The notes below the pieces were generated by a model, which made no database searches, was not told the origin of the DNA, and saw only the letters and a list, made by a program, of their open reading frames with translations. Shown here in pieces: positions 5,317 to 62,149 of a stretch of DNA of 64,000 nt (position 1 is its first letter; each line of letters opens with the position of its first letter). The stretch spans positions 276,527,871 to 276,591,870 of the forward strand of contig CM061141.1 in the NCBI GenBank assembly GCA_030789695.1, in the 5' to 3' direction. The stretch comes from Scilla litardierei. Taxonomy: Eukaryota > Streptophyta > Magnoliopsida > Asparagales > Asparagaceae. The translations under genes and the position numbers were made by a program.

Positions 5317-5880
5317 TATAGGTGGGGTTGACTTGGTCTAGGGCCAAATCTAATAGGATTAGAATTCAAAAAGATTTGAAATTTGAATTTAAACTTCTCC
5401 AACCCAATCTAGGATTTGACCTGGTCCAAATGAGCTGGAAATTGGCTCAAAATTCTTTAAAACGTTTAAAATTCAAATAAATTTTATTTGGCCGAAATTA
5501 ATTTAAAAATAAATTATTAAAAATAATATAAAACTTGTAAAAATTATAAAAGTGGTCAAATAAACTCCAAAAATTATAAAGTAAATATTGTGGTGATCGT
5601 GGCGACGAATGTGAGCTAACTAAGAAGACGGATCTCAAATTCGACGTCGGACGACGAAACTAAAAATAGAACGTCTCCCGTCAAGAGTGAGAATCGTCAC
5701 GTCTCATCGAGTAAGTTTAAATTGTGGGAAAACGACTCGAGAAACGTCGTTCCAAAATAGTGCCACTATTTAATACTTTCAGAGACGTTCACAACGGCAT
5801 AACACACGAAAGTGTTCACAAACACGTGCACGGCCAAAAGCACGTGCACGAACAACGTACAACGAAAAGTGGTCGTTACA

Positions 5881-8800: not shown

Positions 8801-9458
8801 ACGTTTTTTTTTAAAATTTAAATCAATGAAGAAGTATGAAGTATAAGTATATTAAAATTTTGAACAAAATTAAACTTAGGAAAAAGGAAATCGTAAAATA
8901 CTTTCAAGAGTTTCAAAGTTCATAATGGAGAGTTTCGAAAAAAGGACGACGATCGTCATGTAGGCGATCTCGTGATTCGAGGCAAGGAAATTGGTCAGGT
9001 GATCAAAACATTCGTACGCCTAGGATATGACTCAGGAGAGGCTACGGGAAACTCCTACGGTCGACCAACTAAAGATTAAAGCTAAACGCTAGACTTCTAA
9101 AGGTTAGACGGTAAAGAAGTGCGTTCAGCTTGGTCCGAAATCGATGAACCCAAAAGCGAACGACCGAAGGAAAATCTAGAAGTCTAATATGGTCAGGGGT
9201 AGACATGAACCACTAAGGTAACTCCTACGACGATTAAATCAATTGCCAGAAAGGGGGTCTAACTATCAATCAGAGGCCTCTAACTAGCAAGCACAGACGT
9301 CTAACTAAGTCTTCTCATCACCTAGTGTCCTAAAAACGACTAAACTCAGGGCTTCTGATTCGGATGTTGTAATTTATTTAATGGACATTCTGTTATTATC
9401 GTTGTTCCGTTAATTCGCATTTGCAAGATTGGACCTGCATGGGCCACCAACAAAACCT
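5881..9458 (-). other. Non-coding internal domain of X
   Basis: No gag, pol or other believable frame. The plus strand is A/T/C-rich and almost free of G from about 5900 to 7660, then A/G-rich and poor in C from about 7800 to 9400. The PPT is at 5881-5893 on the minus strand. The first bases after the 5' LTR (9430-9458) are identical or nearly so in Y, but I could not match them to a tRNA, so the PBS is unassigned. A hairpin, CACTCA then TGAGTG, near 6818-6833 is kept in Y. Confidence 0.75.
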
Positions 9459-12164
9459 GTCACGCCCCGCTTCCCAAAAACGTGGAGGCGAAGCGTGAGA
9501 AGGTCCGCTCAGACTTGAAGCTACAAAGCTGCAAGTCCGATAAGCGTCGATCAAGTTTAAAACTGCAGGTCCTTGCAATGCTAACGAAACAAAGATAATA
9601 ATAATTAAATGAGACAAAAGAAACATCTCAGAATATCCATAAAATAAGTTTCCAACATCGCAGAAAAGCCATCAGGCTAAAAGGAAGGAGACTAAAGGCC
9701 CAAACATGGCCAACAAAAGTACAAAGTACAAAACAACGGTGCTACGCACCAACAACTAACAAAAGGCCTAAAACAACATAAAGCTCCACAAAGACTCAAA
9801 GAATGGTCACCGGGTCCACCAAAATCCTCCTGGGCAGCCATGGACTCAGACTCAGCGTCAGCAAAACCTCACGTACTCAGCAACGGTCTCTGGCTCAGGT
9901 CTAACATATGACACCCAAAAGAGCAAGGGGCACATGTCAGCAAGTCTGGAAGACTTGTGCAAGTGAAACTGAAAGTACAAGTAAGAGCAACCTAGCAGTT
10001 CTAGTATGAATGCGATGACATGGCAGTTTAAAGTATGAGTGCAACAGGTAAAGTAAAGTAAAGTACAGTACGAGCATGGCATGGCATTCACAAGACAAGT
10101 ACAAGACAAGAAAAGTAAGCACCTCGTGCACAGAGATTCCGTCTTTTGGCTAGAGTGGCTGTACGGGCCAACTCCTAAGCTCAAGTAACCGTTTATCCCT
10201 ACCCCTCCACGTGTGTCGAGCCAGGGCCTTACCCCCCGAACTTGGAATGCTCGCTTCTGGACCACGAGCCAGGAAGTGTGTAAACAAGTATGGCGTAGGG
10301 GTGCACCTAGCCGGACAAGTAGTACAAGGACAAGTATTGTAGCGTGTGCTACGATGCAACAATCAATGCATGGATGACATGGCATGGTAGTTAAAGTAAA
10401 GCGTACAGGTAAGGAAAGTAAACGTGACAGTTTTAGCATGCATGAATGACAAGTTTACTGTTAAGATCTAGCTTCGTTGTCAAGCTAGATCATTTAGGTG
10501 ACGGATCTAGTTTCGTTGTCAAACTAGATCAAGTAGGCGTCTAGTCAGCTATCATTTCACCGACTAGTCTCTTTTACGCTAAAAGCAAGTAAGTGGCCTA
10601 AAAACATGGCCCTACACAAAAGTTGGCAAGTTTCACTTGCCTGCAATTATCACGTCAAGAAAACACCGTCCAACGAGTCCAAGGTCACGATTCCTACGTG
10701 CACAAGTCCACCGGCCTACATCCGTTTTATTAATCTTGATTAGTGATTTCTAAAACATTTAAAATACTTTAAAATACTGATTTTTAGTCTTTATTAGCAT
10801 GCAATTGGGTTGGGGGTCCTAGGGGTGCAAAACGTTACCTCAACACGACGCGAAAGCTATACCGGCGTCGGGTAGCGACGCCGGGGGTTGGAATAAAAGA
10901 TCGCGCTCCAAGTCCTGATTCCAAAATATATTCCTCGCTGGAAAATTCAGAGCTTCAACCGGGGCGACGGTTCCAGATTCCAAAGCTCGCACGTGCGACG
11001 ACGGGCTACGACGTGCGACGACGTCGTACGCGATGAATCCTTGAAGAGAAAGCACCTAGGTGGGGTCCACAGTAGTCCTAGGGACCTTTGGGGAACCCAC
11101 AATAACTCTGAAGAACTTGGGGGGCCCACGGAGGCAAGCGGTGCGACGGGTGTGGGGTTGCGACAAGTGGCCGTCGGTCGTACAGCCTCGGTGCGGGGGC
11201 TTGGCTCGGTCAGACACGGGGGCGGCGCTGTTGCAACACTTTGGGTCGGTCGCAGCAGCGGGGGCGACGTTTTCCTTCGGTCAGACCGATGGAAATCCTC
11301 GGTCAGGCGCTTGGAAGCGGGGTTGCAGCGCTGCAGCGATGCAACGCTCGGGCGCTCGGTCACAGCGGCGGCTTCCTTCGGTCGGGCACGGAGCTAGCGG
11401 GGCGACAGAGCGGGTCGGTGCGGAGCGAGGCGACCGGGCGGTTCTCTCGGTCAGACCGAGAGGCCCTATCGGTCAAGCGGGGAACGAAGCGGCGGTCGAT
11501 GGCAGCGGGCGAGGCGGCCGGTCAGAGCGGGCGGATGCGGGGGTTTTCTTCGGTCGTGCGGGGTACTGAACGTCGCAACGTTGCGACGATTCGTCGCAAC
11601 GTCCAAAAAGAGTTTGGAAGAGGCTAGGGCTAATTTCTTTGGAAAATAGGACTTGCTAGGGTTGCTTATATAGTATAGGTGGGGTTGACTTGGTCTAGGG
11701 CCAAATCTAATAGGATTAGAATTCAAAAAGATTTGAAATTTGAATTTAAACTTCTCCAACCCAATCTAGGATTTGACCTGGTCCAAATGAGCTGGAAATT
11801 GGCTCAAAAATTCTTTAAAACGTTTAAAATTCAAATAAATTTTATTTGGCCGAAATTAATTTAAAAATAATTATTAAAAATAATATAAAACTTGTAAAAA
11901 TTATAAAAGTGGTCAAATAAACTCCAAAAATTATAAAGTAAATATTGTGGTGATCGTGGCGACGAATGTGAGCTAACTAAGAAGACGGATCTCAAATTCG
12001 ACGTCGGACGACGAAACTAAAAATAGAAACGTCTCCCGTCAAGAGTGAGAATCGTCACGTCTCATCGAGTAAGTTTAAATTGTGGGAAAACGACTCGAGA
12101 AACGTCGTTCAAAATAGTACCACTATTTAATACTTTCAGAGACGTTCACAACGGCATAACACAC
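9459..12164 (-). repeat. 5' LTR of X (right copy, missing its first 73 bp)
   Basis: Nearly identical to 3100-5807. It stops after GGCATAACACAC at 12164 and lacks the part equivalent to 5808-5880, including the terminal TGTAAC and the doubled G-box. O gag sequence follows directly. In element orientation the missing part is the start of U3 of the 5' LTR. Confidence 0.85.
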
Positions 12165-28751: not shown

Positions 28752-28894
28752 GACATCCGGGGAGGTAACGTGCTTGTTTATTTTAGGGCCCAGTGAACCC
28801 TTAAGTCTAGTTCACATCCTTACCTCGCGATAATTTTCACATTCTACACGTTTTAATTTTACTAGGACATTTTGTATATACTAGTTGTATAGTA

Positions 28895-29173
28895 ATGGTA
28901 GAATGTGTCGCCATACTACCGTCACTACTCCTCACCTCCCCATTCATACAACCCGTGCTATTGACGTGCTCTCTATCTGTGCAGTTCTCCCTCTCTCCTT
29001 TTCTTACAGGTTTTCTGCTCCACGACAAGGATGTTGTGTGCCGTTTGGGGCGATATCTGAGAACATTCACACCACATCAGTTGTTTGGCACAGAGTCTGA
29101 CAGAATCTCTGAGCGCCTCAAGCATTCTATCACTTCTGTCAGATGTTGTAGAAAATCAGAGGAGGAATCATGA
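28895..29173 (+). other. Leader reading frame of Z, conserved with W
   Basis: A 92-codon frame with the same core as W 183-458 (KDV.C, then LFG.E...RI.E, then a Lys/Glu-rich end). A TTTTCTTACAG acceptor-like sequence lies just upstream of the conserved core (near 28998-29008). Between 29174 and 29345 the frame is broken, with stops. Function unknown. Confidence 0.35.
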
Positions 29174-29345
29174 TGTGCAGTAGCATCCAGTCACGACAAC
29201 TTTCTTTCCTCCCGACGAAGCGAAGTATATTGACGTACCTAGTTCCAAATTCAGTGGGGGAGAATTATGCACCCATGAGGAGTTTTTCCCGGAGGACTAT
29301 CAGACGGAGTTTATCGAGCACGTTGAACAGGAATCAATCTATCCC

Positions 29346-32300
29346 TTGCAGACATCTATAGAGCACCCTGGATCTTGGGACAATGAGGAAGCTAAAAGTA
29401 GTGGTGGAGAACTATCGACTGTTGAGACCTGTTTTCGCGTTGAGGCCGTCTACCTGGATCATTATCATGTACCTGAGGAAGACCCAGAGCCTTCCTCCGT
29501 TATCCCCTCTTTGCCTTGCGAGGCTTCGTCTTGCAAAACCACGGGTGGAAGTGAAGCACCAGATGCTAGCTTCCAGGAGACCCAGGAAGAAGTCTTTTCA
29601 CTGGAGGATGCTCAGCTTGAGAAATACGTGTCGGGAACCCAATATGTTGAGATGAAAGAGTTACCTCCAGGATTGAAGTATGAATATTTGGGGGAGAATT
29701 CGACGCTGCCAGTCATAGTGAACTCCTCGCTGCCTGAAGACCAGATGACCAAACTACTTGGTGTTTTAAAAAGGTTTAAGAATGCTTTCGGGTATGCAAT
29801 TGAAGATTTGAAGGGAGTGAGCTTGGGGCTTTGCTCATATAGGATACTGCTTGAAGACGAGCAAGCCCCCTCAATTGAGCCACAACGAAGGCTGAATCCC
29901 ATCATGATGGAGGTGGTCAAGAAGGAGATTGTTAGACTCCTACATGCCGGGATCATATACCCTATCTCTGATAGTCGTTGGGTTAGCCCGGTGCATGTTG
30001 TACCCAAGAAAGGAGGAATGACGGTAATTCGTAACGAGAAAAATGAGCTCATACCCACGAGGACCGTCACGGGGTACCATATGTGCATCGACTACCGGAA
30101 ACTGAACAAGGCCACAAGGAAGGATCATTATCCTCTTCCTTTCATTGATCAGATGCTCGATAGACTGGCGAAGCACAACTACTTCTGCTTCATGGATGGA
30201 GACTCCGGCTTTCTACAAATCCCCATCCATAACAACAACCAGGAGAAGACGACCTTTACCTGTCCTTTTGGGACGTATGCTTACAGGAGAATGCCGTTTG
30301 GGCTTTGCAATGCCCCAGCTACATTTCAAAGGTTAATGTCCGCAATCTTCTGCGACTACTCCTAGGATATAATGGAGGTATTCATGGATGATTTCTTTGT
30401 CTATGGAACAGAGTTTGACTCATGCCTCCGCAACCTGACGAAAGTCCTGGAAAGGTGTCAAGATAAAGGACTAGTTCTGAACTGGGAAAATGCCATTATA
30501 TGGTCCAAGAAGGAGTCGTGTTAGGGCACATTATTACTTCAAGAGGGATTGAGGTGGATAAGGCCAAGGTTGATGTGATTCAAAAGCTTCTGCCTCCGCT
30601 TAACCTTCGGGGAGTTCGTGGATTCTTAGGGCACGCGGGATTCTACCGTCGGTTCATAAAGATTTATCCAAAATTTATAGGCCCTTGACCCAACTCCTCG
30701 TGAAAGATACGCCTTTTGTCTTTGATGACGAGTGTATGGAAGCTTTCCGCCTATTGAAGCAAGCCCTTATCTCCGCACCAGTGATTCAGACGCCAGACTG
30801 GAGTCTACCTTTCGACCTAATGTGCGATACCAGCGACTATGCAGTTGGGGCCGTCTTGGGGCAGAGGAAGGATAAAAATCTACATGTTATATACTATACG
30901 AGAAAAACCCTCGACGTAGCCCAAAGGAACTATACGACCACGGAGAAGGAATTGCTAGCTGTCATCTATGCCATGGACAAGTTCCGGCAGTATCTTGTTG
31001 GTGCCAAAGTAATCGTGCATACGGATCATGCGGCCCTCAAGTACCTTTTGAGCAAGAAGGAGGCTAAACCGCGGCTCATAAGGTGGATTCTCCTCCTCCA
31101 TGAATTCGATTTGGAGATCAAGGACAAGAAAGGGGCGGAGAATGTCGTTGCTGACCACCTGTCCAGGTTGCCTACTCTCGATCCAGATGCTACTCCTATT
31201 GACGACTCGCTCCCTGACGAGCATCTTTTCTCCATCTCCTCTGTATGGACTCCATGGTACGCAGACATCGCCAATTATCTGACATGCGGCATCGTCCCCT
31301 ATAACGTGAGCTATCAGCAGAAGAAGAAATTCTTTCACGAGGTCTAGAAATTTTATTGGGACGACCCTTATTTGTACATGGCCTGCAATGACGGGGTAAT
31401 ACGAAGGTGCATTCCTGAAACAGAAGCAACCTCCGTAATTTCTCATTGCCATGATCAATAGTGTGGGGGCCATGCGAGTGCTTACAAGACAACGGCGAAG
31501 ATCCTACAGAGTGGATTCTATTGGCCGACCCTTTTCAAGGACACATACGCTTATGTCCAGGATTGCGAAAAATGCCAGAGAACAGGAAACATCTCCAAAA
31601 GGAATGAAATGCCTTAGAACTACATTTTGGAAGTCGAGATCTTCGATGTGTGGGGAGTCGACTTCATGGGACCGTTCCCCTCGTCCTATGGGAATCAGTA
31701 TATCTTGGTAGCCGTGGATTATGTGTCCAAGTGGGTAGACGCTATAGCTAACCCTACTAATGATTCCCAGGTGGTCGCCAAATTCTTTAAAAATAATATC
31801 TTCCTGAGATTCGGTGTGCCTCGAGTTTTAATCAGTGACGGAGGGAGCCAGTTTATAGAGAAGAAATTCGAAGCTCTCTTGAAGAAGTACGGGGTGCAAC
31901 ACTGAATCGGATGTGCCTATCACCCACAAACTAGCGGCCAAGTGGAAGTTTCTAACAGAGAGATCAAAAGCATAATGGAGAAGACGGTGGCCAACTCTAC
32001 GAAGGATTGGTCATCGAAACTTTCAGACGCACTCTGGGCTTACAGGACTGCGTTCAAGACTCCGATCGGCACAACCCCTTACCGACTTGTCTATGAGAAG
32101 GCATGTCATCTACTTGTGGAATTGGAGCACAAAGCATATTCGACCGTCAAAAATCTGAATTTCGATGCCAATGAGGTAGGAAGCCACCGATAGCTGCAAC
32201 TGAATGAGCTTGACGAGATCCGGCTCAATGCTTACGAAAATGCCCGGATCTACAAGGAAAAGTTGAAACGGTGGCACGACAAGCGCATTCTAAAGAAAGA

Positions 32301-32559
32301 ATTCAAGGAAGGAGACTTAGTTCTCCTATTCAACTTGATACTGAGGCTTTTTCCTGGGAAGCTCAAGTCCAGGTGCTCGGGACCTTACCGAGTCACCAAG
32401 GTCTTCCCGCACAGAGCAATTCAGATAATGGGAAGAGATGAACCGCTCAAAGTCAATAGGCAGTGCCTAAAACATTATGTGATTGGTGATCCAGTAATCT
32501 CTCCGGTCGGAATCTCAACGACCGATGGCTCATCTACAAATCCTCCGGATCCGAATTGA
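29346..32559 (+). pseudogene. pol: Pol of Z: reverse transcriptase, RNase H, integrase (Athila type)
   Basis: Order RT-RNase H-integrase marks Ty3/gypsy. RT has CIDYRKLN, MPFGLCNAPATFQ and an intact FMDD (aspartates at 30387-30392). RNase H begins [13 protein letters not shown] (about 30824). Integrase has its zinc finger (about 31440-31590), then [15 protein letters not shown] and VEVSNRE supplying D, D, E, and a C-terminal GPYRV segment (about 32380). It is broken by stops near 30363, 31345, 31458, 31615, 31903 and 32191 and by frameshifts near 30490 and 30680. Several stops are one C-to-T step from CAG or CGA. The first 150 codons are an acidic stretch where protease might be expected; I see no clear protease motif. 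Confidence 0.92.
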
Positions 32560-32744
32560 CGACTAAATGAGGAGTCGAGCAAACAACTATAAACAACAGT
32601 GCTTCATGGGAGGCAACCCATGTTCTAAACTTTCTCCGTTATTTTTAGGATCATTTTTTTCTTATTTTTGGTGAATAAATTCAGCAATGGGTATTTCCGT
32701 CGGAAGACTTAGATCAAACTTTGAACTTGTGCAGGAAACCGTCC

Positions 32745-33111
32745 CCAACCGATCGGGTGATGAATCAACCGATCGGTTGGACCGTGTCTGAGGATGGCTC
32801 GTATCAGTGCAACAGTAAACCGATCGGGTGGCATAAGAGGCTGACCGGGTAGAAGATCGGGTGACACAGCAGAGCTCTCGGGAATTTTTGAGATTAAATC
32901 AACCGATCAGTTGGACTGAAACGGTGATCGGGTGGCTGTCCGGGTGAAATGCACAGTGCTCTCGTGAAAATTTGGGAAGCGGTCAACCGATCGGGTGAGA
33001 TCTCACCCGATCGGTTCACCTGTAGCTGTTGACCGACAAGGAATTTTTGAAACCTACCCAACCGATCAGGTGAACCATCACCCGATCGGTTCGCCTCCGC
33101 CTCTATACATA
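32745..33111 (+). promoter_or_regulatory. Internal CCGATCGG array and TATA-like box upstream of the Z 3' ORF
   Basis: At least eight AACCGATCGGGTG-type motifs, the same as in Athila-type LTRs here, including a perfect 32-bp palindrome at 32985-33016. The last motif ends about 33092-33094. A TATA-like TATACATA follows at 33104-33111, so the gap is about 10 bases, against 12 in the W, Z and A LTRs. Pyrimidine-rich DNA follows (33112-33340), with an AACCCTAG telo-box near 33303. The LTR flank TGTAGC after the palindrome is also kept. I infer a second promoter. Confidence 0.6.
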
Positions 33112-33515
33112 CTCCCCCCTCACACGACCTCATTCACCCGACTCCCACATTTCTGTCCGCACGTTCTCTGTCTCCATCTTCCCAATTGATCTCCTCCATC
33201 AATCCCTTCACCCCTAATATCATTCCCCTACCTTTTCCCATACTCCCCCACCATCAATACCCTACCCACCGACTGCATCCACCCGTGAAACCTCCAAAAC
33301 CTAACCCTAGCCCCTAATTTTCGAAATTTCATTTCTTGACGGATCAGCGAGCGACAGTTCCCCAGATTGCTCCCTTATACGGCGTGGGATCTTTCGGAAG
33401 CTTGGACTTGCATCATTGTTGGGTAACCTCTTTCCACTCTGCATATTTCTTTCCATATATGCAATATCTTGAATTTGTGTCTATCTGCTTCATCTTCCTT
33501 ATCATCATCATTACC

Positions 33516-34744
33516 ATGTCTAAGAAGGGAAAAGAGATAGCCTCTTCATCACGCAGACACCCCCTATATGGCCCTTTTCCCCAATCATTCCTGGGCATTC
33601 ACCCAACTTCTGAAGAGCAATCTGCGCGTCTGCACGCCCTGCTTCATCGCCCCATGCGACCTACCCTTTTCACTGATTCCCACACGCTCGAATCTCTCAG
33701 ACTCTTTAGGGGGGTCAGCAGAATTTTTAACTGCATCGGTTGCGATTTCATTCTGCGTGCTCATGCCCCCACACACCGGAATCTCACACTCGATTTCCTC
33801 GGTTCTCTCGAAGAGTCCGATTGTGGTTTCACTTTCCGCGCTTTCAACGGGAATTTTCTTTGAGTTTTGTCGAGCTTAACAATATTCTGAATTTCCCTCA
33901 CCCCAATCGCCATGTTGAATGTTCAACTCACGATCGATCTGATATCTTTTCTTACTTTCAGGACGATGGTGTTTGGCAACGGTTCACCCGGTATACCACC
34001 TTTCCATCAGGAGCACTTGCCTCCTACATCATACATCCATGTTACCGCTTCACCCATTGCCTCCTTGCCAACACCATCTTCTCCCGTGTAGATGTTTCCA
34101 CGGTGTCTCGGGATGATCTTTTCTTTCTTTACGCCATGTCCCACGATAGAATCCATGGACATGTCCCTTTGCCCATAAACACCGCCCATTGGATCATCCA
34201 AGAGATTTTATCTGTTAGCCACGCAACTTCTGGATCTATCTGCTATGGTGGGAAGATCACTCTTATTGTCAGTTGTGTTTTGAGGCTGCCGCCCGACCTC
34301 CATATTTTACCAGGATGCTGTCGTATCGATCGTGACTACTTGATCGATATCGGTATGATCACCCCTTTCGGCGAGGAGCATGATGTCTACCTCTATAGTC
34401 CTGACTGTACTCCATTTTCCATCCTCCCACCATCATCTTCTGAGCGAATCCCCATTCGCATTTCCCATTTACCGTGGGAGTTCTACCCGGATCCTTGGTA
34501 TGCCACACTCGTACATTTTCCACCCTTGGAACCTCCCGATTTGCACACGTGTGTCGATTCACCCGGTGCAATCATTATCCACCAAGATCCACCAATAAAT
34601 CTCGATCCACCGGTAATCCAGCCAGTTGCCCCTCCTACTCTTGTCGGCACACCCTCTCCTTCGTCCTCAGAAGATTCCTTCCTCCACTATTCACCACCCT
34701 CCTCACCATCTCCCTACCATTCTACCGACAGCGGCTTAGATTGA
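33516..34744 (+). pseudogene. 3' ORF of Z (Athila ORF1-type protein, env position)
   Basis: About 410 residues if read across one frameshift near 33855. The first part (from MSKKGKE) contains the pattern of Athila ORF1/putative plant transposon proteins: L-rich segment, IGCDFILRAHAPTHRNL, then LDFLGSLEES...FRAFN. After the frameshift it continues SFVELNNILNFP and runs to a Ser/Pro-rich C-terminus. An upstream in-frame ATG at 33336 exists, but the residues between it and MSKKGKE look like translated leader, with a GT-like donor near 33421, so I prefer 33516. Its role in the element is unknown. It has its own upstream array (32745-33111). Confidence 0.75.
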
Positions 34745-36190
34745 CCTCCCCCTGGCATATATCTGCATCACCATGATCATATCATATTGCTAGCATTGTC
34801 ATGTTTAGCTTGGGGGAAATCGATTTTTGTGTATTGTCGTGTGTTTTTCGTCGTTGTGTACCTGTTTACATGTGTAGTTTGGGAGTGCTTTTCTATCTCT
34901 TATTTTGTGTGTTTCTTTTTCCTTCTTTTTATTTTTATTTTTATTTTTCTATTTTCGTTTGTGTGATTTCCTTGTTTTCATCTTTTTGTGTCGGTGTGTA
35001 TTCCCCCTATTTTCATTGCCATCATGTATTCACTACTATTACATTGAGGGCAATGCAAGTTTCAGCTTGGGGGAGTCGCACTTCGAGCGTTAGTTGCATC
35101 TATTTCTTCGCTTTTGAGTCTTTTTCATCGTGGTTTTCTTTTTATTCTCATCTTTTGTTCTCTCTCTACTAGAGATGGCCCCATATGATGAATTGCCACA
35201 AAACTACACATACACCTAGCATGGCTTTGATAATCACATTCACTAGTCGAGTCCTATTGCATTTGATGCATCGTGGGTTCACTTTGCTTTTATGTGAGTC
35301 GTGTGTCGTGCCTAGCTAGTTAGTGTGCTTCTACTTGGTGATTTTGATTTATATCTGTCCTGGGATGACCCTTAGATTATCATGCTCCAATTTGAATATG
35401 CGGTATTTGCTTCTACTGTCTGCTTCTATATGCATGAATATATTTATATCGTATACTTCAATTCGCATGTGTCGGGATTCCACAAATAGGACTAGGATAA
35501 CCCATTTAGCTTATGCTCTGATTTGCGAGAAAAATCTCCTTTGCCCAAGTGTTTAGAATCCGATTTCTTTTTTATTTTACTTGGTGCAAATCCCCTCATC
35601 GTGTACCGTTCTCCCACTTGGGAGAGTACACATGTATATACCCCAAAATCCAAAAAATCCAAAAAAAAAGATAGAAAAGAAAAACCCAAAAAAGCGAAAG
35701 AGAAAAGAAAAAATATATATATGTATAGCCAAAAACCTAAAAAAAAATACAAATAACCGAAACCCAAAAATTCCCCTGTGAATATTTCTCCTATCAACCG
35801 AGAATAAAGGGAAGGTGAGAGTTTGCACCGAGTGCTCTACTCCACACCTTCTCAACCTCCATCGTTTTCGAAAACACTTGGCAAAGGATCTTTCCATCGG
35901 CTATCTAGGAGATAGTGTGGTGATTTCCTAGTCCCTAGCTGTGGAGTCCCCGATAAATGATACGCTTCGATTCTTACTCTGTTCTAATGCATGCTTGAGC
36001 TATTTATTCGCCGCTTATTTCAAATCGAATCGATATTTGGGTCTTTCCTTGGGTATGTGTATATGGAGCCTTATTGCACAATGTAGATAGGAACACCGTC
36101 TGCTAGCACACGACCACACTCACTCGTGCTTCACCGCGTGGGCCCACGACACTTGTATGGACTCATATTCCGTGGTTTAGTGTTGTGTTT
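34745..36190 (+). other. 3' spacer of Z, part 1, with PPT-like tracts
   Basis: No gene. AGCTTGGGGGA tracts occur near 34808 and 35068, as at the true PPT (45543). An A-rich, CCAAAAAA-type stretch is at about 35640-35760, matched by the same kind of stretch in Q (54650-54800, opposite strand). Short T- or A-rich open frames here are low complexity. Y interrupts at 36191; TGTTT at 36186-36190 is its left target duplication. Confidence 0.7.
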
Positions 36191-39020
36191 TGTCACGCCC
36201 CGCTTCCCAAAAATATGGAGGCGAAGCGTGAGAAGGTCCGCTCAGACTTGAAGCTACAAAGCTGCAAGTCCGATAAGCGTCAATCAGCTTTAAATAGCAG
36301 GTCCTTGTAATGAGAAATGAAACAAAGATAATAAAAGGAAATGAGACAAAATGGAAATCTCAGAATATCCATAAAATAAGTTCCAACATCACAGAAAATC
36401 CACCAGGCTAAAAGAAAAGAGTCTAAAAGAAGCCCCAGCATGGCCAACAAACGTACAGCGTACGGAAAACAAAGTAATGGTGCTACGCACCGACAACTAA
36501 CAACAAACCTAAAACAAAAGAAAACTCAACAAGGTCACGAAGAATGGTCACCGGTAACCACAACTCCTCCTGGACAGACTTGGGCTCAGCGTCAGCAATT
36601 ACCACGTACTCAGCAAAGGTCTCTGGCTCAGGGTCTAACATGTGACACCCAAAAGAGCAAGGGGCACATGTCAGCAAGTCCAAAAAGACTTGTGCAAGGA
36701 AACTGAAAGTAAATCAAGTAACCTAGCAGTTCTAGCATGATGCAATGACATGGCAGTTAAAGTATGAGTGCAACAGGTAAAGTAAAGTACAAGTACAAGA
36801 GGACAACTAGCATGGCATGGCAAGAGTAACAAACTACTAACAATCACAAGTCATGTTTCTATGTCGTGCACAGAGTTCACGCCTTACAGCTGAAGAGGCT
36901 GTACGAGCACACTTCTACGCTGAGTGGTCGCTCAACCCTACCCCTCCACGTGTATCGAGCCAGGGCAGTACCCCTGAACTTGAATGCTCGCTTCTGGATC
37001 ATGAGCCAGGAAGTGTTTTTCATGATGGCATAGGGGTGCACCTAGCCAGGACAAGCAAGTACAAGTATTGTAGCGTGTGCTACGAATGCAACAATCAACT
37101 TGGATGACATGTAAGATGCAATGCATGGCAGTTAAAAGTGCGTACAGATAAGGAATATAAACGTGGCAGATAACAATGCATGAATGACACGGCAGGGTGA
37201 CAGATCTAGCTTCGTTGTCAAGCTAGATCTTAAAATTGCGTCTAGACAGCTATCATTTCACTGTCTAGTCTCTTTTACGCTAAAAACAAGGAAGTGGCCT
37301 AAAAACATGGCCCTAAGCAAAGTTGGCAAGTTTCACTTGCCTGCAAGTCAAACATCTGAGAAACACCGTCCAACGAGTCCAAAGTCACAAATATCATACG
37401 TGCACAAGTCCACCGGCCTACATTTCCGTTTTATTAATCTTAATTAGTGAATTTAAAACACTTTAAAAACTTCAATTTTAAGTCTTGATTAACAGGCAAT
37501 GGTTGGGGGTTCTAGGGGTGCAAAGCGTTACCTCAACACGACGCGAAAGCTACACTAGCGTCGGGTGGCGACGCCAGGGGTTGGAATAAAAGAACGTGCT
37601 CCTAGTCCAAATTCCAAAATAGATTCCTCGCTCGCCAAGTCTGGACAGCAACCAGATCAATGAACCAAGATTCCAAGGCTAGAACGTGCGACGACGGGCT
37701 ACGACATATCGTAACGTCGTAAACAGCAAATACACGAAGAAGAGACACCTAGGTGGGACCCACAGTAGTTCTAGGGACCAATGGGGGACCCGCAATACCT
37801 CTGGAGAACTTGGGGGGCCCACGGTGACAAGAGGTGCGGAAGTTGCGACGTTGCGACGAACGTCGCTCGGTCAGACCTAGCCGGTGTGAGGGATTCTATC
37901 GGTCGGTGCGGAAGAAACCCTCGGTCGGACACAGCGGGCGGCCTGTGCAGCGCTTCGGGGCTGCGATGCGGAGCGGGCTCTCGGTCGGTGTGGGGGAGGT
38001 CTTCGGTCAGGTACTTGGGGCGGGTCGGTCGGGCGCTTGGCGGGGCTTGCAACGTTGCAAGCGTTGCAACGAAGCGGGCGATGCGAGCGGTGCGGGGGAG
38101 CGCTTCGGTCGGACACAACGGATGCGGGGGTCGGTGCGGGCTTGCGAAGCGGATGCGGAGTGGGGGTCGGTGCGGGCGAGATCCTCGGTCAGACCGAGGG
38201 ATCCTCTCGGTCGGACACGGGGCGAAGTGGACGGCTGCTGTGTGGTGCGAAGCGGCCTTGGTGCGGGCGGGGCTCTCGATCAGACCGAGAGAATGGGGGC
38301 GAAATCCTCGGTCGGTGCCGGCGGCGGCGGCTGCAACGTTTCGACGAATCGTCGCAATCGAGATTTTGGGTTTTTGTGACGGTTAGGGTTAATTTCTTGC
38401 GAAAATAGGTCTTCCTAGGGGTTGTTTATATAGTGTAGAGGGGTTGACTTGGTCTAGGGTTAAATCTATTAGGATTAGGATTTTAAAATGATTTAAAATT
38501 CAAAACTCTCTCTCTCTAACCCATGCATGGCTAGGGTGCGGCCAAGATGGGCTAGGATTTGGCTCAAAAATCGTTTGAAGTATTATAATCTTAATAAAAT
38601 TTTATTTGGCTGAAAATACTTTAAAACATAGTTATTAAAAATATTATAAACTTTGCTAAAAATGTAAAATAGGTCAAATGAACTCCGAAAATTATGAAAT
38701 AAAGATTGGGGTGATCGGGACGACGAGAGAAAGGTAACTAAGAAGACGGATCTCAATTTTGACGTCGAGCACCGAAACTAAAAATAGAAACGTCTCACGT
38801 CAAAAGTGAAAATCACAACGTCTCTTCGAATAAGATCAAATCGTGGAAGAACGACCCGAGAAATGTCGTTCCAAATTAGTGCCACAATTTAATACTCTCA
38901 GAGACGTTCACAACGGCATATCACACCAAAGTGTTCACAAACAAACAAAGTCTAAAATAGATACGTGCACGGTCAAAAGCACGTGCACGAACAAAGTACG
39001 ATCGGAAAGCGGCCCTTACA
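36191..39020 (-). repeat. 3' LTR of Y (left copy)
   Basis: 2830 bp. It carries the CGTTGTC-loop hairpin with 11-base arms (37202-37212 with 37220-37230), the CTAGACAG/CTGTCTAG hairpin (37242-37249 with 37261-37268), a GC-rich TCGGTC block (about 37868-38330), a minus-strand TATA-like box near 38425-38433 and the doubled G-box near 38965-38990. No gene. Confidence 0.9.
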
Positions 39021-42000
39021 TCCTCCCCACATTAGAATAAAGTCCGTCCTCGGACTTTCTAACATATCTAGTCGCTCTAGTAACTACCCCAATCATGTCA
39101 CATTATAATTTAACCCATGGATAGCTATTACAAGTGCTTATATATGCACTAGGTAGTAATATAATAATTCTGCGAACATGTATGTATTCACGCACGTATT
39201 TCAATCATATGCATACATCCCTTATATAACTACTACTTACCTAGCACAAAACAATAGTTCAGATACTCATATAAGTATAGTCTCACACTAGCAAATACAA
39301 TCATTGCTCTACGTATAGATAACTACCTATGCACAAAACAAACATGGGTATACTACTCCCTAATATTCATCCGATACCAAACATCTCAACACATGTAGTC
39401 ACGTCATACCATTATTATATCAGGTTTTACTATATCTAATATACATTCACCACTACTATAACTTCACAATATATAGTCATTCAAATGTATGCAAATATTT
39501 CACCATAACTTCACATCACAAACGGCCCTATAACTATACTCACGACACGTCACACATACCATAGTCATCAATACCTATAACTAAGCACATACTTACCCGT
39601 GCATGGTGCACACCACTACACGCTAACATTTCATTAACGTATACTAATCGTACCATTATATAACTAGCACATCTACACACCTAGTTTAGCTAGCACACAC
39701 ACGTTCACACATGCAAGTCCTTAGTAAATAACTATACCACAAGACCAACACCTATAACTATATACTGGTATAGCGACCCACAATCATGTGCGTAGCCCAA
39801 CCAGGCACAAACACTCCTATCACTATACATACATCAAACATTGCTATATGCAACTACAGACATACATAATAATATACTTAGAGTATACCCACTCAGGCTT
39901 GAGTGAGACTCGAAACACATATCAGAATACTCTATATACGTAACACGGTATTTATACCTATACCAATACCACTCCAATGTATACACATCTACCAATACAA
40001 CTATATACATACCATATGTCCATCACACTTAATATTTAGTCAGGTAACACCAACATAGTTCAATCAATTTATATACCATAATAATATTACAGACATCAGC
40101 ACACGTATAATTATAATACTCTTCCTAATACGTGTATTCATCGTATAGTCACATACATGTAGAACATATATTCACACCATATCCTACTACGTATAATTAG
40201 TATACCAACACATCTACTCCATTCATAGTTAAGGTATGCAATAGTCGTGTATACCCCATGGTATACACTCATACAACATCCGTAAAAGCAAGCAATACCA
40301 ATCAAAATTATAATCCTACTACCATATGTATAACACCTATATACTCATGCAACAAATACATAACTACTTACGTCTTAGCACAATACGTATCCACGTACGA
40401 GCACATACTCACACGTGCTAACATATAGGTCATATAATAGGCCTACTCACTTAACTATACGTACGCCTATTATTATCACACCTATCATAAACATAGCTTT
40501 ACCAACATCTTATTTCAACCATTATAAGTATCTCCAACTACATACACCCCATTAGATATTCCAACACTGATTCTTATATACACAGACGTCCCTAGAGTGG
40601 TATAGCTATCCTCACACATACCTATAAATACTAACACACATAAAATTTCATAACATCATGAATAACTCAGAGTCTGTATATATCACACCATAGGCAACCA
40701 TTATTATACTACAGGGGAGAACACTCATTCAAGCCCACACACTCAACTTAGGTACATGCACTATGACAATGTCACAAAGGTCCAAGGGCCTACTAATAAA
40801 TTAGGGTTCACTCAGTCATTGACAAGCACTAAAGCCTAAGCAATAGAGGGAGGTCGAGGTCGATAGTGTAAAAAGGGAAGGATCGATAAGCACGGGTTCA
40901 GATAGGAAGACTATAAGGAGACAGCTTGGTTGGGTGGAACAACGACTCACTTGTGAATGTTTAGGTAGAGGAAAAGGGAGGTGTAGTGATACTCTTATAG
41001 GATACAGAAAGAAAATAGTGTAAATAACATAAGCTAAAATACGTGAAATTTGGAACTGTGGTACTTCAAAAGTTGGAGTCCTCGTCTGTATAAAAATATT
41101 TGGAGGTCGATAAAACAAGTTGTTCGAAATAAGTTTGAGTCGAAAAGTCATAATAGACTTATTGGCTTATCGAAAATTATTATGAAAAGGAAGCAAATCA
41201 TTCATACAAACATTAAGGACGTAGTTTAGAAAATATTATACGGCAGTAATTTAATATAGTGTTGGCAAAAGTTTTGAAATTCAAAGAATGAAATTAAATT
41301 AACTGAAGAATTTAAGCTCATGTTAAAATCTTTCAAAGTCTTTAAGCTAGAGAAAAGTTTAAAATAATCAATATTGAAACTACTTTTAGAGGGACCAGGA
41401 TTTGCTAAAAAGAAACTGATTTAGGCAAAGTTCTTAATATACGAGCACAACGAGCCTGGTACGGATATATAAAAATAATTGAAATTCTATTTAGTTTAGA
41501 AATCATTCTAAAAGTATGTATGGTGAACGGAAAGATAATAATAATTTAGTAGAAGAATTATCAAAATTGGTAATAAAGTTTTAAAACCAAATTATGGAGT
41601 GTCTAGATCGGGAAATGTTTTCGAAGTAGTAATTTTACAAAAACCTGAAATAGAGAAAACGATGGGCATAAAATCGACTTGCTGAAAGCTGAAATTCCAT
41701 GTGACTTGAAAAGTATATTAGAAGTAAACACGATGTGTCATTCGAATGGCATAAATAAGAAAAGAAAATTATAAATCGAATTGGGCAAAATAAGAGTACG
41801 GTTCAGAATGAAATTAGTATATGAAGGGACAAGGTATTTACATAGGTACGAAAAGTATAGGCTGGAAAAATATCATAAGCTAGTATTCAAAAATCTCGAC
41901 AAAAGTTTTAAAAATTTAAGTCAACGGAAGAGTATGAAGTCTAAGTATATATATTAAAAATTTTCGAACAAATTTAAACTTAGGGAAGAGGAAGTCGAAA

Positions 42001-42570
42001 AATACTTTCAGAAGATTCAAGATTTATAACGTAGGGATTCGAAATTTGACGACGATCGTCATGAGGCGATCTCGTGAATAGAGGCAAGGAAAATGGTCGG
42101 ATGATCAAAACATACATACGCCTAGGATGTGGCCCAGAAAACCTACGGGGAAACTCCTACGGTCGACCAACTAAAGATTAAGAAACTTGAAGCTACGATT
42201 CCCTAAAGAACAAGACTGTAATGGAATGCGTCCGGCTTGACCCGAAATCTATGAACCCTAACGGGCGACTAAAGAAATTCTAGAAGTCTAATATGGTCAG
42301 AGTTAGGCAAGAACCACTAAGGTAACTCCTAAGACGATTAAATCAATTCCTAGCGGGGAGTCTAACTAGCAATCAGGGACCTCTAACTAGCAGGTTCAGA
42401 AGTCTAACTAAGTCTTCTTACCACCTAGTGACATAGAAAAACGATTAGAACTAGGCTCAAGGTTTATGACTCGGATGTTGCAATTTATTTAATGGACATT
42501 CCGTAGTTATTATCGTTGTTCCGATAATTCGCAATTGCAAGACGGACCTGCATGGGCCACCAACAAAACC
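39021..42570 (-). other. Non-coding internal domain of Y
   Basis: Aligns by eye with 5881-9458 of X from end to end, with scattered substitutions and indels. It has the same strand asymmetry (G-poor plus strand to about 40750, then A/G-rich) and keeps the CACTCA/TGAGTG hairpin near 39889. The PPT is at 39021-39033 on the minus strand. No believable frame. Confidence 0.8.
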
Positions 42571-45374
42571 TGTCACGCCCTGCTTCCCAAAAATATGGAG
42601 GCGAAGCGTGAGAAGGTCCGCTCAGACTTGAAACTACAAAGCTGCAAGTCCGATAAGTGTCAATCAGCTTTAAATAGCAGGTCCTTGCAACGCGAAATGA
42701 AACAAAGATAATAAAAGAAAATGAGAGAAAAGGGAAATCTCAGAATATCCATAAAATAAGTTTCAACATCACAGAAAATCCACCAGGCTAAAAGAAAAGA
42801 GTCTACAAGAAGCCCCAGCATGGCTAACAAACGTACATCGTACGGAAAACAAAGTAATGGTGCTACGCACCGACAACTAACAGCAAACCTAAAACAAAAG
42901 AAAGCTCAGCGGTAACCACAACTCCTCCTGGACAGACTTGGGCTCAGCGTCAGCAATTACGACGTACTCAGCAACGGTCTCTGGCTCAGGGTCTAACATG
43001 TGACACCCAAAAGAGCAAGGGGCACATGTCAGCAAGTCTAAAAAGACTTGTGCAAGGAAACTGAAAGTAAAGCAAGTAACCTAGCAGTTCTAGCATGATG
43101 CATTGACATGGCAGTTAAAGTATGAGTGCAATAGGTAAAGTAAAGTATAAGTACAAGAGGACAACTAGCATGGCATGGCAAGAGTAGCAAACTACTAACA
43201 ATCACAAGTCACGTTTCCATGTCGTGCACAGAGTTCACGCCTTACAGCTGAAGAGGTTGTATGGGCACACTTCTACGCTGAGTGGTCGCTCAACCCTACC
43301 CCTCCATGTGTATCGAGCCAGGGCAGTACCCCCGAACATGAATGCTCGCTTCTGGATCACGAGCCAGGAAGTGTTTTTCATGATGGCATAGGGGTGCACC
43401 TAGCCGGGACAAGCAAGTACAAGTATTGTAGCGTGTGCTACGAATGCAACAATCAACTTGGATTACATGTAAGATGCAATGCATGGCAGTTAAAAGTGTG
43501 TACAGATAAGGAATTTAAACGTGGCAGATAACAATGCATGAATGACACGGCAGGATGACAGATCTAGCTTCGTTGTCAAGCTAGATCTTAAAATTGCATC
43601 TAGACAGCTATCATTTCACTGTCTAGTCTATTTTACGCTAAAACAAGGAAGTGGCCTAAAAACATGGCCCTAAGCAAAGTTGGCAAGTTTCACTTTCCTG
43701 CAAGTCAAACGTCTGAGAAACACCGTCCAACGAGTCCAAAGTCACAAATATCCTACGTGCACAAGTCCACCGGCCTACATTCCCGTTTTATTAATCTTAA
43801 TTAGTGAATTTGAAACACTTTAAAAACTTCAATTTTAAGTCTTGATTAACAGACAGTGGTTGGGGGTCCTAGGGGTGCAAAGCGTTACCTCAACACGACG
43901 CGAAAGCTACACTGGCGTCGGGTAGTGATGCCAGGGGTTGGAATAAAAGAACGCGCTCCTACTCCAAATTCCAAAATAGATTCCTCGCTCGCCAAGTCTG
44001 GACAATAACCAGATCAACGAACCAAGATTCCAAGGCTAGAACGTGCGACGACGGGCTACGACGTATCGTAATGTCGTAAACAGAAAATCCACGAAGAAGA
44101 GACACCTAGGTGGGATCCACAGTAGTTCTAGGGACCAATGGGGGACCCACAATACCTCGGGAGAACTTGGGGGGCCCACGGTGGCAAGCGGTGTGGAAGT
44201 TGCGATGTTGCGATGAACGTCGCTCGGTCAGACCGAGCCGGTGCGAGGGATTCTGTCGGTCGGGGCGGAAGAAACCCTCGGTCGGACACAGTGGGCGGCC
44301 TGTGCAGCACTTCGGGGCTGCAATGCGGAGCGGGCTCTCGGTCGGTGCGGGGGAGGTCTTCGGTCAGGCGCTTGGGGCGAGTCGGTCGGACGCTTGGCGG
44401 GGCTTGCAACGTTGCAAGCGTTGCAACGAAACGGGCGATGCGAGCGGTGTGGGGGAGCGCTTCGGTCGGACACAGCAGATGCGGTGGTCGGTGCGGACTT
44501 GCGAAGCGGATGCGGAGCGGGGGTCGGTGCGGGCGAGATCCTCGGTCAGACCGAGGGATCCTCTCGGTCGGACACGGGGCGAAGCGGGCGGCTGCTGTAT
44601 GGTGCGGAGCGGCCTTGGTGCGGGCGGGGCTCTCGGTCAGACTGAGAGAACGGGGGCGAAATCCTCGGTCGGTGCGGGCGGCGGCGGCTGCAACGTTGCG
44701 ACGAATCGTCGCAATCGAGATTTTGGGTTTTTGTGACGGCTAGGGTTAATTTCTTGCGAAAATAGGTCTTCCTAGGGGTTGTTTATATAGTGTAGAGGGG
44801 TTGACTTGGTCTAGGGCTAAATCTATTAGGATTAGGATTTTAAAATGATTTAAAATTCAAAACTCTCTCTCTCTAACCCACGCATGGCTAGGGTGCGGCC
44901 AAGATGGGCTAGGATTTGTCTCAAAAATCGTTTGAAGTATTATAATCTTAATAAAATTTTATTTGGCTGAAAATACTTTAAAACTTAGTTATTAAAAATA
45001 TTATAAACTTTGCTAAAAATGTAAAATAGGTCAAATGAACTCCGAAAATTGTGAAATAAATATTGGGGTGATCAGGACGACGAGAGAAAGGTAACTAAGA
45101 AGACGGATCTCAATTTCAACGTCGAGCGTCGAAACTAAAAATAGAAACGTCTCATGTCAAAAGTGAAAATCACGTCTCTTCGAATAAGATCAAATCGTGG
45201 AAGAACGACCCGTGAAATGTCGTTCCAAATTAGTGCCACAATTTAATACTCTCAGAGACGTTCACAACGGCATATCACACCAAAGTGTTCACAAACAAAC
45301 AAAGTCTAAAATAGATACGTGCACGGTCAAAAGCACGTGCACGAACAAAGTACGATCGGAAAGCGGATGTTACA
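42571..45374 (-). repeat. 5' LTR of Y (right copy)
   Basis: 2804 bp, matching 36191-39020 with numerous small differences. It has the same hairpins (near 43561-43590 and 43600-43628), GC-rich block (44220-44690) and TATA-like box (about 44782-44790). It ends TGTTACA and is followed by the TGTTT duplication. Confidence 0.9.
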
Positions 45375-45556
45375 TGTTTTGTCGCATGCTTGCTTGGTGT
45401 GGCGTGTTTGATATTGTTGGCTCTGACGGGCGATCTAGGATTTTTTTTTATTTCTCACTCACTCTCTCACTCACTCTCTCTCTCTATTTTTCCCTCCGAA
45501 CTCCTACTCTCACTCGTCTTCCTCGAGGACGAGGAAGGGTTTAGCTTGGGGGATTT
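45375..45556 (+). other. 3' spacer of Z, part 2, and PPT
   Basis: Continues Z after Y. It includes a CT/CA-rich run (about 45455-45490) and ends with AGCTTGGGGGATTTT (about 45543-45557), the PPT abutting the LTR. Confidence 0.75.
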
Positions 45557-47221
45557 TAACGTGCGTTAATATTTTATATATTCGTGCACGTCTTCTTTAT
45601 GATTTTCCGTTGTTTTTCGTCGTCCCGTACCCATTTTCTTGTATTTTTAGTTTTCTTTCACTTCTTTGTGTTTTTGTGTAAATGCAGGAGATTGCCAGCG
45701 TTGGGGACATATAAAGAAGATATCATGAGTCCCCGGAGCAACGGGAGGAGTCACGCGTGATCCAGAGGGTCAAATGATGAAGATTTCTATATCTCAGCCC
45801 TAAACCGATCGGGTGGACCAGCCACCCGATCGGTTGATGCATGTGTATCCGACCCGGACGGAGGCTAAAGTGAAGAGCAGCTCACCCGATCGGTTCAGTG
45901 CTCGGGTGAAATCGACAGAGCTCTCTGCCATTTGAAGCTGAATTCCAACCGATCGGGAGACATCTCACCCGATCGGTTCATCTGTAGCCGAATTTTCCAA
46001 ACGATGACCCGGAGAGCTCAACCGACCGGTTCGTCGATCGGCTGAATCCGACAGAGTTCTTTGTTCTTTTGAGCTGATTTCCAACCGATCGGGTGACATC
46101 TCCCCCGATCGGTTCATCTGTAGCCGCATCTCCCCAATGCTCGAACCGATGGCGCCACCCGCTCTCCTTAGCGCCCGGTTGAAGCTCCTGAAGCCGACAG
46201 ACGAAGCGACAAGCAGCTCACCCGATCGGTTGATGCTTCAACCGATCGGGTGGCTGCGATTTCTATAAATAGCTAACCTAGGTTTTCTGAAAAGGGATGC
46301 TGTTATTTTTTGTCTTTTTCTTGGGTTGTGACGGCTGGAATTTTATCTGTTTTTGTAAGTGCTCTGATTACTTTGAAATTTTAATATTGTCTTAGTACCA
46401 TTGCTAGCATCTCATTTCTATTGCTTGATCATGATTTCTATCGTTGATTTTTGTTTAGATTGTGTTTTAGCTATGAATTGTGAGTAGTTCCCGAATCTGG
46501 GATTTTGGGGGAAACCCTTTCGTGGGTTCTCCCTAGAACGACTATAGGATTAGGATTTCGATATGGTTTAGGAATTTAGATGGTTACGCGGGGTGTTTCA
46601 TTGTCATTGGTGGGAGAAAGACCGCCTCTGACCGTCGGGCCAAGGGGAAATAAACTTGGCGGTTGACTCTCTAGCCATAGCTCACGCCCCTAGCGTAGAC
46701 ATTGAATCCTAGCACGTGGGAACAGCAGGATGAGATGTTGGAAGTAATCATTGCGAGCTTAGTGCTCCTGGAGTCGGTCGGTGTTAATGGACATAGGAAT
46801 GCCCACCGACCGAACCCGGGTAGTCCTAGCGTGTCATCATGGGCACCGACCGGAATATCGGGCCCATGTGACGCTAGGTATCACTCTTAGAGGCAACGTC
46901 TCACCACTAAACCCTAAATCCAATCATACTCATATCCGTCAGTCGTAATAGAGAGGGCACACGATAGAGTGAAAACTGAAGTCCTAGATTTTCTTTTATA
47001 TATCGTTCATCCTTCATATTCATATCCTGTGACAACCTACCGATCGTTTGGGCTAGCTCACCCGTAGGGTGAACTGGTTGCTCTTTGACACAATCACAAC
47101 ACACGCCTCCCTGTGTTCGACCCCCAAGCCACACTACAACACCGTGCGCTTGCGGTATAAATATTTAAATCTAGTATCCCCGATCCTATTGCACTTGCAT
47201 GCTCAAATCTAGGGGATGTCA
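45557..47221 (+). repeat. 3' LTR of Z
   Basis: 1665 bp, starting TAACGTGCG where relatives have TGACGTGCG (terminal G-to-A) and ending GATGTCA. The CCGATCGG array is at 45803-46251 and the TATA box TATAAATA is at 46264-46271, 12 bases after the last motif. The foldback with 14-base arms occurs twice (45947-45978, 46083-46114), each with one mismatch. A conserved GAAAGACCGCC block sits near 46590-46640. No gene; the 62-codon frame at 46702 is noted among rejected items. Confidence 0.85.
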
Positions 47222-57974: not shown

Positions 57975-59502
57975 TGACGTGCGTCTATATTTCATATATT
58001 CACTCACGTCTTCTTCGTGATTTTCCGCCGTCTTCCGTTGTTTCATATCCATTCTTTTGTGTTTTTTGTATCTTTTCACTTTCTCCGTGTTTTTGTGCAA
58101 ATGCAGGAGTTTTCAGTGTTGGGGACATATAAAGAAGATATCATGAGTCTCCGGAGCAACAGGAGGAGTCATGCGCAATCCAGAGGGCCAACATCGAAGA
58201 AAACCAAGTTTCATCCCTCAACCATCAAGTGGACAGAGCCACCCGATCGGTTGATGCACGCGTATCCGACCCGGACAAGAGCTGAAGAGAAGAGCAGCTC
58301 ACCCGATCGGTTCGCTGATCAGGTGATATCGACAGAGCTCTCTGTCTTTTTGGGCTTAATTCCAACCGATTCGGTGACATCTCACCTGATCGGTTCATCT
58401 GTAGCCGCATTTCTTAAATTGATGAACCTACGGCGCCACCCGCTGAGCTCACAGACCAGTTGAAGCTTCTGAAGCCCGATGGCCAAAGCAACCGTCATCT
58501 CACCCGATCGGTTGAAGTTTCAACCGATCGGGTCGCTGTATTTCCTATATATAGTTAACCTAGGTGTTCAGAAACGGGATCCTATTTGTATTTTCTGTTT
58601 TTGGGACTTGTGACGGCTGGAATTTTCTCTTGTTTTGTAAGTGTTCCGATTGTCTTGAAACTTTAATATAGTATTAATATCATTGCTAGCAACTCTTTTC
58701 TATTGCCTGATTATGATTTTAACCATTGAATTTCGTTAAGATTGTATTTTTACCAAGAATTGTGAGTAGTTCCCTAATCTGGGATTTTGGTAGAAACCCC
58801 TTCGTGGGTTCTCCCTAGAACGACCATAGGAATAGGATTTCGATAGGGTTTAGGAATTTAGATGGTTACGCGGGGTGTTTCATTGTCATTGGCAAGAGAA
58901 AGACCGCCTCTGACCGTCGGGCCAAGGGGGAATAAAGTTGGCATTTGACTCCCTAGCCACATGTCACGCCCCTAGCATAGACATTGAATCCTAGCGCGTG
59001 GGAACAACAGGATGAGATGTTGGGAGTAATCGTTGCGAGGTTAGTACTCCCGAAGTCGGTCAGTGTTAATGGACATGGGAATGCCCACCGACCGAACCCG
59101 GGTAGTCTTAGCGTATCATCCTGGGCATTGACCAGAATATCGGGCCCATGGGACACTAGGTATCGCTCCTAGAGGCAACGTCTCACCACTAAACCCTAAA
59201 ATCCGCTCGTTATCCTATCCGTCGGTCGTAATAGAGAGGGCACATGATAGGGTGGAAACCAAAGTCTTAGGTTCCCTTTTATATATTACATCCTTCGTAT
59301 TACCATTCGTGACAACCTACCGATTGTTTGGGCTAGCTCACCCATCAGGTGAACCGGTTCCTACTTGACAGCAAGCACAAAACACGCCTCCCAAAGTTCG
59401 ACCCCCCAAGCCACACTACAACACCGTGTGCTTGCGGTTATAAATATTTAAATCTGGTATCCCCCATTCTATTGCCTATAGTGCCAAATGTAGGGGACGT
59501 CA
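57975..59502 (+). repeat. 5' LTR of A
   Basis: 1528 bp from TGACGTGCG to GGACGTCA. The CCGATCGG array is at 58240-58533, with the 14-base-arm foldback at 58364-58395 (some mismatches) and TATATATA at 58546-58553, 12 bases after the last motif. A GAAAGACCGCC block is near 58876-58929. No gene. Confidence 0.9.
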
Positions 59503-59509
59503 AGCTTTA

Positions 59510-62125: not shown

Positions 62126-62131
62126 AGTTTT

Positions 62132-62149
62132 TGGCGCCGTTGCCGGGGA
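62132..62149 (+). other. PBS of B (tRNA-Asp)
   Basis: TGGCGCCGTTGCCGGGGA, six bases after the LTR, identical to that of W. Confidence 0.95.

Follow-up and report, generated by a model that had tools for sequence, protein, structure and literature searches.

How the env-position protein of plant retroelements is produced, and what its role is, remains an old open question. For Athila6A of Arabidopsis an internal promoter of the ENV open reading frame (ORF) has been published, with its starts, ORFs and intron defined, and nearly all copies retaining this promoter fall into one silencing class (PMC4977677). Sireviruses, which belong to Ty1/copia, carry palindromic CGG-CCG RM boxes in the long terminal repeat (LTR) upstream of the TATA box and again 5' of ENV; the authors put these boxes forward in favour of an internal ENV promoter, which they could not conclusively identify (PMC2829016). 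For BAGY2 and Athila, env RNAs are predicted to be spliced (PMC2829016), and an Athila table of expressed sequence tags holds many env matches beside gag ones (PMC2410132). Foamy viruses possess an internal promoter within env, upstream of regulatory/accessory genes, whose basal activity is raised by Tas (PMC7390438). Here we analyse a promoter-like module between pol and the env-position ORF (ORF3) of element Z, an Athila-type Ty3/gypsy retroelement in a 64 kb window of the 3.68 Gb genome of Scilla litardierei, which contains nested LTR retroelements; all coordinates refer to this window.

Z resembles Athila6A in being of Athila type and in having a predicted promoter region before its env-position ORF. 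The accessible text on Athila6A gives no sequence architecture, relation to U3 motifs or spacing, whereas the putative Z promoter is deduced from its sequence and shares motif doublets with the LTR. The Sirevirus RM boxes resemble the octamers of Z in being palindromic and in occurring both in the LTR and 5' of the third gene, but they belong to Ty1/copia instead of Ty3/gypsy, and in Z the LTR and the internal module also have a TATA box at the same distance, with variation measured across copies. BAGY2 and Athila share the gene position and the acceptor-like AG seen here, their predicted route being splicing and not a separate start. Foamy viruses, too, are retroelements with an internal promoter in addition to the one in U3; the internal one is located inside env and shows little sequence relatedness to U3 (PMC7390438), whereas the Z module precedes ORF3 and shares U3 motifs. 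An earlier note on this DNA, made from the sequence alone, had drawn the foamy virus comparison, which holds for the second internal promoter but is a loose analogy only, as the two foamy promoters are little related. The note started from the usual assumption that such plant ORFs are expressed from spliced or full-length RNA, which is incomplete, since the Athila6A promoter is published. Our searches of open-licence papers, mostly viewed as listings, brought up no Athila element described as having an internal promoter with the motifs and the TATA distance of its LTR. We therefore count the fixed-spacing architecture common to both as new, the internal ENV promoter of Athila6A and the palindromic Sirevirus boxes 5' of ENV being already known.

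We consider it likely that positions 32745–33140 constitute an internal U3-type RNA polymerase II promoter producing a separate ORF3 mRNA, with a predicted start about 25–30 nt past TATACATA. Its parts are the following:

32745–33089, plus strand: U3-type octamer array (CCGATCGG type), the predicted upstream activating part of the internal promoter (motif counts, copies)
32985–33016, no strand: perfect 32-bp palindrome, two octamers 20 bp apart forming a doublet (sequence)
33062–33089, no strand: TATA-proximal doublet CCGATCAG / CCGATCGG, 20 bp apart (signature scan)
33104–33111, plus strand: TATA box TATACATA, 14 nt past the last octamer

The array comprises eight octamers at 32749–33089, six of them exact CCGATCGG and two with one mismatch. 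The six exact copies in 32557–33111 compare with 0.016 expected and a maximum of one among 1000 dinucleotide shuffles, and across the entire window 32 exact copies were counted versus 0.54 expected; a chance cluster of motifs was ruled out by these counts. No other perfect palindrome in the window comes near the 32-bp one, all those of at least 14 bp reaching 18 bp at most.

The same layout was found in LTRs of the window, belonging to Z itself, to an element near 58 kb and to a second family, W, with a further element, A, as the exception:

46222–46271, plus strand: doublet within the 3' LTR of Z, followed after 14 nt by TATAAATA (signature scan)
58504–58553, plus strand: doublet within the LTR of the 58-kb element (about 57975–59503), followed after 14 nt by TATATATA (signature scan)
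1619–1668, minus strand: doublet within the 5' LTR of W (695–2254, reverse), followed after 14 nt by TATAAATA (signature scan)
60115–62126, plus strand: LTR of element A, last octamer 53 nt before the TATA box (exception to the layout)

The octamer-to-TATA gap is thus 14 nt in three of the four window LTRs of this kind, exactly matching the internal module. Octamer-N12-octamer-N14-TATA is confined to the three LTRs and the internal module within the window: on the plus strand the doublet-N14-TATA signature starts only at 33062, 46222 and 58504, and on the minus strand it occurs once, in the W LTR, so that the layout marks these four places. The other TATA-like words at most 80 nt from an octamer in the window have gaps of 37 nt (minus strand) and, in A, 53 nt. 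The 3' portion of W, fetched from beyond the window, has the signature in both the internal module and the 3' LTR. The module therefore shares with three LTR promoters the doublets, the 14-nt TATA spacing and, for Z, part of the flanks, as described below. As for the earlier note, the recurrence of the LTR motif array between pol and the 3' ORF, the 32-bp palindrome with its TGTAGC flank (present as CTGTAGC), the TATA-like box at 33104–33111 and a pyrimidine-rich, telo-box-bearing leader were all recovered. Its distances need correction, as it placed the TATA box about 10 bases past the last motif instead of 14 nt and gave an LTR gap of 12 for W, Z and A, where we find 14 in W and Z and 53 in A.

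Of the 47 intervals between neighbouring octamers (one mismatch allowed) in six arrays, 16 measure exactly 20 bp, and the doublets at 19–21 bp (n=18) are inverted repeats whose inner arms match at 74 of 90 positions versus 57.6 after re-pairing (0/5000). The outer arms are less clear, with 55 of 90 versus 49.5 (287/5000). This inverted 20-bp doublet grammar, which the earlier note did not mention, together with the perfect palindrome would also suit a nucleic-acid structure, either hairpins in the genomic RNA that act in packaging, dimerisation or plus-strand synthesis, or cruciforms. We regard such a function as quite improbable, as the outer arms lack clear covariation, the octamers themselves are palindromes resembling sites for paired DNA-binding proteins, and the fixed TATA spacing and identical U3 layout point to promoter DNA; an Rfam search of 32400–33700 gave no match up to E 1.

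To evaluate conservation, copies of two families, Z and W, were compared. W-family places were searched with the W ORF3 frame, a query blind to the module, and 95 of 49,574 first-look candidates were scored. The 5' LTR of W lies in the window at 695–2254 in reverse orientation, its 3' LTR (97.3 % alike) in the fetched continuation, and its ORF3 is an open frame of 442 codons with the first ATG at codon 25. In the internal module of W, TATAAATA follows the last octamer by 14 nt. Twenty places spread over the list of 95 were chosen by ORF3 alone, and 19 of them carry the array and TATAAATA at exactly 14 nt, with near-identical octamer intervals, most often 20, 51, 83, 20, 65, 20, 53–54 and 20. 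The twentieth, L065, has an unrelated repeat at the module site, the region further upstream of which was not looked at. The earlier note had named absence of the array from most copies as evidence against its proposal, and the W family shows the opposite. Module and a stop-free ORF3 match occur together in 15 of the 20 places, and 70 of the 95 scored ORF3 matches contain no internal stop (counted from the table). As a separate observation, L029:3640–4965 (minus strand) and the genome matches show an env-position gene kept open in a family that, judging from 49,574 first-look candidates, is apparently very large.

The diversity table of the W family consists of W and the 19 copies, L065 having no module to align. 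The TATA box does not vary at all in this set. CpG sites show a variation of 0.040 within octamers versus 0.143 at other array CpGs (p 0.010), which is the opposite of what CpG decay would lead one to expect, and non-CpG sites vary by 0.048 in octamers versus 0.078 (p 0.013).

Z-family places were found by DNA search with 32745–33300 as query, 40 of 3539 first-look candidates being scored. The module is hence present by choice and comparisons of module versus outside are biased, so only contrasts within 32741–33250 were used. Among 40 Z-family sequences including Z, a sequence has a mean of 5.2 exact and 7.4 near matches at the eight octamer positions. The TATA start is intact in 36 sequences, or in 35 if the tighter pattern TATA[ACT]A is required; the gap measures 14 nt in 37 and 13 nt in three. 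The gap is the most variable class compared (0.208), while its length is nearly fixed; TATA variability is 0.061, the third lowest among 153 eight-base windows (p 0.076). The full last doublet (at most one mismatch per octamer) combined with N12 and N14 is found in 13 of the first 20 copies. These 20 places were fetched with 8 kb, revealing the integrase end upstream in 18 and ORF3, in some cases shortened, after the leader in 16, the four without an ORF3 match being L011, L022, L026 and L028. The 3' LTR lies within the fetched stretch in 11 of 20 places, and nine of the ten 3' LTRs spanning the site have the TATA box at 14 nt, L025 having AATATATA instead. A neighbouring stretch, L031, matched solely another window element. 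A promoter-like region between pol and the third ORF is thus kept across copies. The anatomy and this conservation, covering TATA box and spacing in the Z family and 19 of 20 W-family places, lend strong support to the earlier note's proposal that the 3' ORF has its own U3-like promoter, from which transcription is predicted.

Comparison between the families points in the same direction, as the module stands at the same place in both and its octamers vary less than the surrounding array. Identity between W and Z amounts to 94 % in octamers, 70 % in other array bases, 76 % in spacer and pol end and 70 % in the leader; the octamer value was not attained by any of 5000 randomly placed sets, although the W–Z alignment itself favours placing octamer on octamer. 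For ORF3, the ratio of nonsynonymous to synonymous divergence (dN/dS) between W and the five longest Z-family frames is 0.19–0.26 at dS 1.0–1.4. Within the Z family it is 0.51–0.91, which fits decaying copies and frames starting out of register.

Element A (60115–64000 and L051:1–3611) offers a natural contrast, as it lacks pol and ORF3 and also lacks the module. It is young, with both LTRs present and 98.1 % alike; blastn matched neither pol nor ORF3 to it, and its two LTRs enclose not a single exact octamer. An internal module was likewise not found in A. Its one long ORF has no Pfam match and contains a CCHC-like word by eye. A also has 3' sequence, and its U3 carries an insert with two more octamer doublets.

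Regarding the origin of the module, the earlier note described it as duplicated from the LTR, which holds in part, for the flanks of the Z module but not for those of the W module. With octamers masked, the Z module flanks match the U3s of Z (0/200 shuffles), the 58-kb element (0/200) and A (1/200), and no likeness beyond chance was seen to the second array of A (34/200) or the W LTR (32/200). The W module flanks match the U3 of A only (0/200), not exceeding chance against Z (46/200), the 58-kb element (168/200), the second array of A (40/200) or the LTR of W itself (34/200). A solo or nested LTR fragment was considered and rejected, as LTR matches are confined to the octamer array and both families have the same pol–ORF3 location. 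The flank likeness in Z is what a copying accident would give, and octamer arrays do differ in number between LTRs, with extra doublets in A, so the module might be a functionless leftover of U3 repeats from template switching with a TATA box arisen by chance. We assign this explanation hardly any weight, given octamers that are 94 % identical between families at a synonymous divergence of about 1, CpG-rich octamers less variable than other CpG sites, and the recurrence of TATA box and gap in 19 of the 20 W-family copies, which were selected independently of the module.

Downstream of the TATA box, the following features were assigned:

33112–33515, plus strand: pyrimidine-rich leader of the predicted ORF3 mRNA, with the telomere-like repeat CCTAACCCTA near 33298–33310 (sequence)
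33129–33136, plus strand: predicted initiator CTCATTCA, 25 nt past the TATA start in Z, with the predicted start A at 33132
33422–33427, plus strand: predicted leader-intron donor GGTAAC (alignment)

CTCATTCA, which we take to resemble a plant initiator, is present in 35 of 40 Z-family copies, 22–26 nt past the TATA start, and is absent from W. An alignment of 14 rows, made up of Z, W and 12 of the 20 fetched Z-family copies, shows the donor GGTAAC in 13. All 21 W-family leaders contain it, followed about 90 nt later by an AG; an acceptor-like AG before ORF3 is likewise found in 11 of 12 aligned Z-family copies, not in L025 or in Z, whose leader is missing the acceptor stretch. A leader intron of about 90 nt is therefore predicted (33422–33515; W-family leaders L052–L071). 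In W an ATG stands directly before the donor, so that an upstream reading frame could overlap the start of ORF3 or not depending on whether the leader intron is spliced.

L011 and L026 retain the module without ORF3, which speaks against a strict link between the two, although ORF3 was apparently lost there by later deletion. The acceptor-like AG and the splice acceptors predicted for BAGY2 and Athila env (PMC2829016) would suit ORF3 expression by splicing of LTR-started RNA into the AG before ORF3, the array then being at most an LTR enhancer. This route seems unlikely to us, since it leaves unexplained the TATA box at exact LTR-like spacing and its conservation, and a local intron suffices because the leader has its own donor about 90 nt upstream of the AG. 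Splicing from the LTR may also coexist with an internal promoter.

Taken as an internal promoter, the module would work as follows. A host factor reading the doublets would turn on LTR and internal promoter together, the second U3-type promoter would start an ORF3 mRNA, and this mRNA would have a short leader from which the predicted intron is removed. In Z, the promoter–ORF3 unit is a remnant, since its ORF3 is frameshifted. More tentatively, and with somewhat less than even confidence, we suggest that one portable cassette of inverted 20-bp doublets, 14-nt spacer and TATA box is used twice, so that a single host DNA-binding factor would switch on the genomic RNA together with an ORF3 mRNA of its own that contains an intron, with ORF3 made as an independent gene needed for spread.

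The remaining anatomy of Z includes two coding regions:

29184–32556, plus strand: pol of Z (reverse transcriptase, RNase H, integrase), in broken frames, ending shortly before the module (frames and Pfam)
33516–34744, plus strand: 3' ORF (ORF3, env position) of Z, in two overlapping frames and hence broken (frames and Pfam)

Ty1/copia elements encode integrase before reverse transcriptase. In Z, reverse transcriptase (29184–30362), RNase H (30604–31344) and integrase core (31618–31902) follow each other, with PF00078, PF17917/PF17919 and PF00665 found on separate pol pieces; this order matches the Athila lineage and differs from that of Sireviruses. The pol stop at 32557 is followed by a 188-nt spacer before the array. 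Directly after this stop, an inverted repeat, CATGGGAGGCAACCCATG, lies at 32605–32622, identical between W and Z within about 30 unchanged bases in surroundings about 75 % alike and detected by a loose pattern, in some cases altered, in ten of 20 Z-family copies; it may be a conserved RNA hairpin. The two broken ORF3 frames together reach 21.2 bits against PF03078 ATHILA (cut-off 20.2), no single stretch passing alone, and E 7e-6 with 26.4 bits against PF20167, under its cut-off of 45. The polypurine-tract-like AGCTTGGGGGA occurs three times after ORF3 by reading (34806–34818, 35064–35074 and 45543–45553), the last alone adjoining the 3' LTR, so that Z has extra polypurine tract sequence upstream of its 3' LTR as in the Athila4/Calypso type; Athila4 and Calypso reportedly have one extra tract (PMC2829016). 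The 3' region is split by another element at 36191–45375, with the 3' LTR at about 45559–47221. This inserted element and the one at 3100–12164 are related and have LTRs of 2.7–2.8 kb (95 % and 99.7 % alike, respectively). At the other end (28754–29184) Z apparently lacks 5' LTR and gag, its leader starting abruptly near 28757 inside the primer-binding-site region, which is cut off there, beside unrelated sequence. In the Athila lineage the primer-binding site is complementary to tRNA-Asp; TGGCGCCGTTGCCGGGGA, presumably such a match, follows the LTRs of A and W.

Searches beyond the genome gave no counterpart: a pattern scan of viral contigs had 0 matches, ORF3 was confirmed in none of the prokaryote contigs and had no match at E 0.001 in the protein collection, and the titles among the literature matches listed for the octamer looked unrelated.

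For the biology of these elements, the module represents a sequence-defined promoter candidate with a predicted start. Motifs common to module and LTR, set at a fixed distance, tie control of the third gene to the LTR, and both module and ORF3 show constraint. Such promoters may matter for plant silencing, as retention of the Athila6A promoter reportedly goes with one silencing pathway (PMC4977677). If the cassette proposal is true, the fact that very large families have preserved both cassette and ORF3 for so long would imply that the element depends for its spread on ORF3, made as a gene in its own right.
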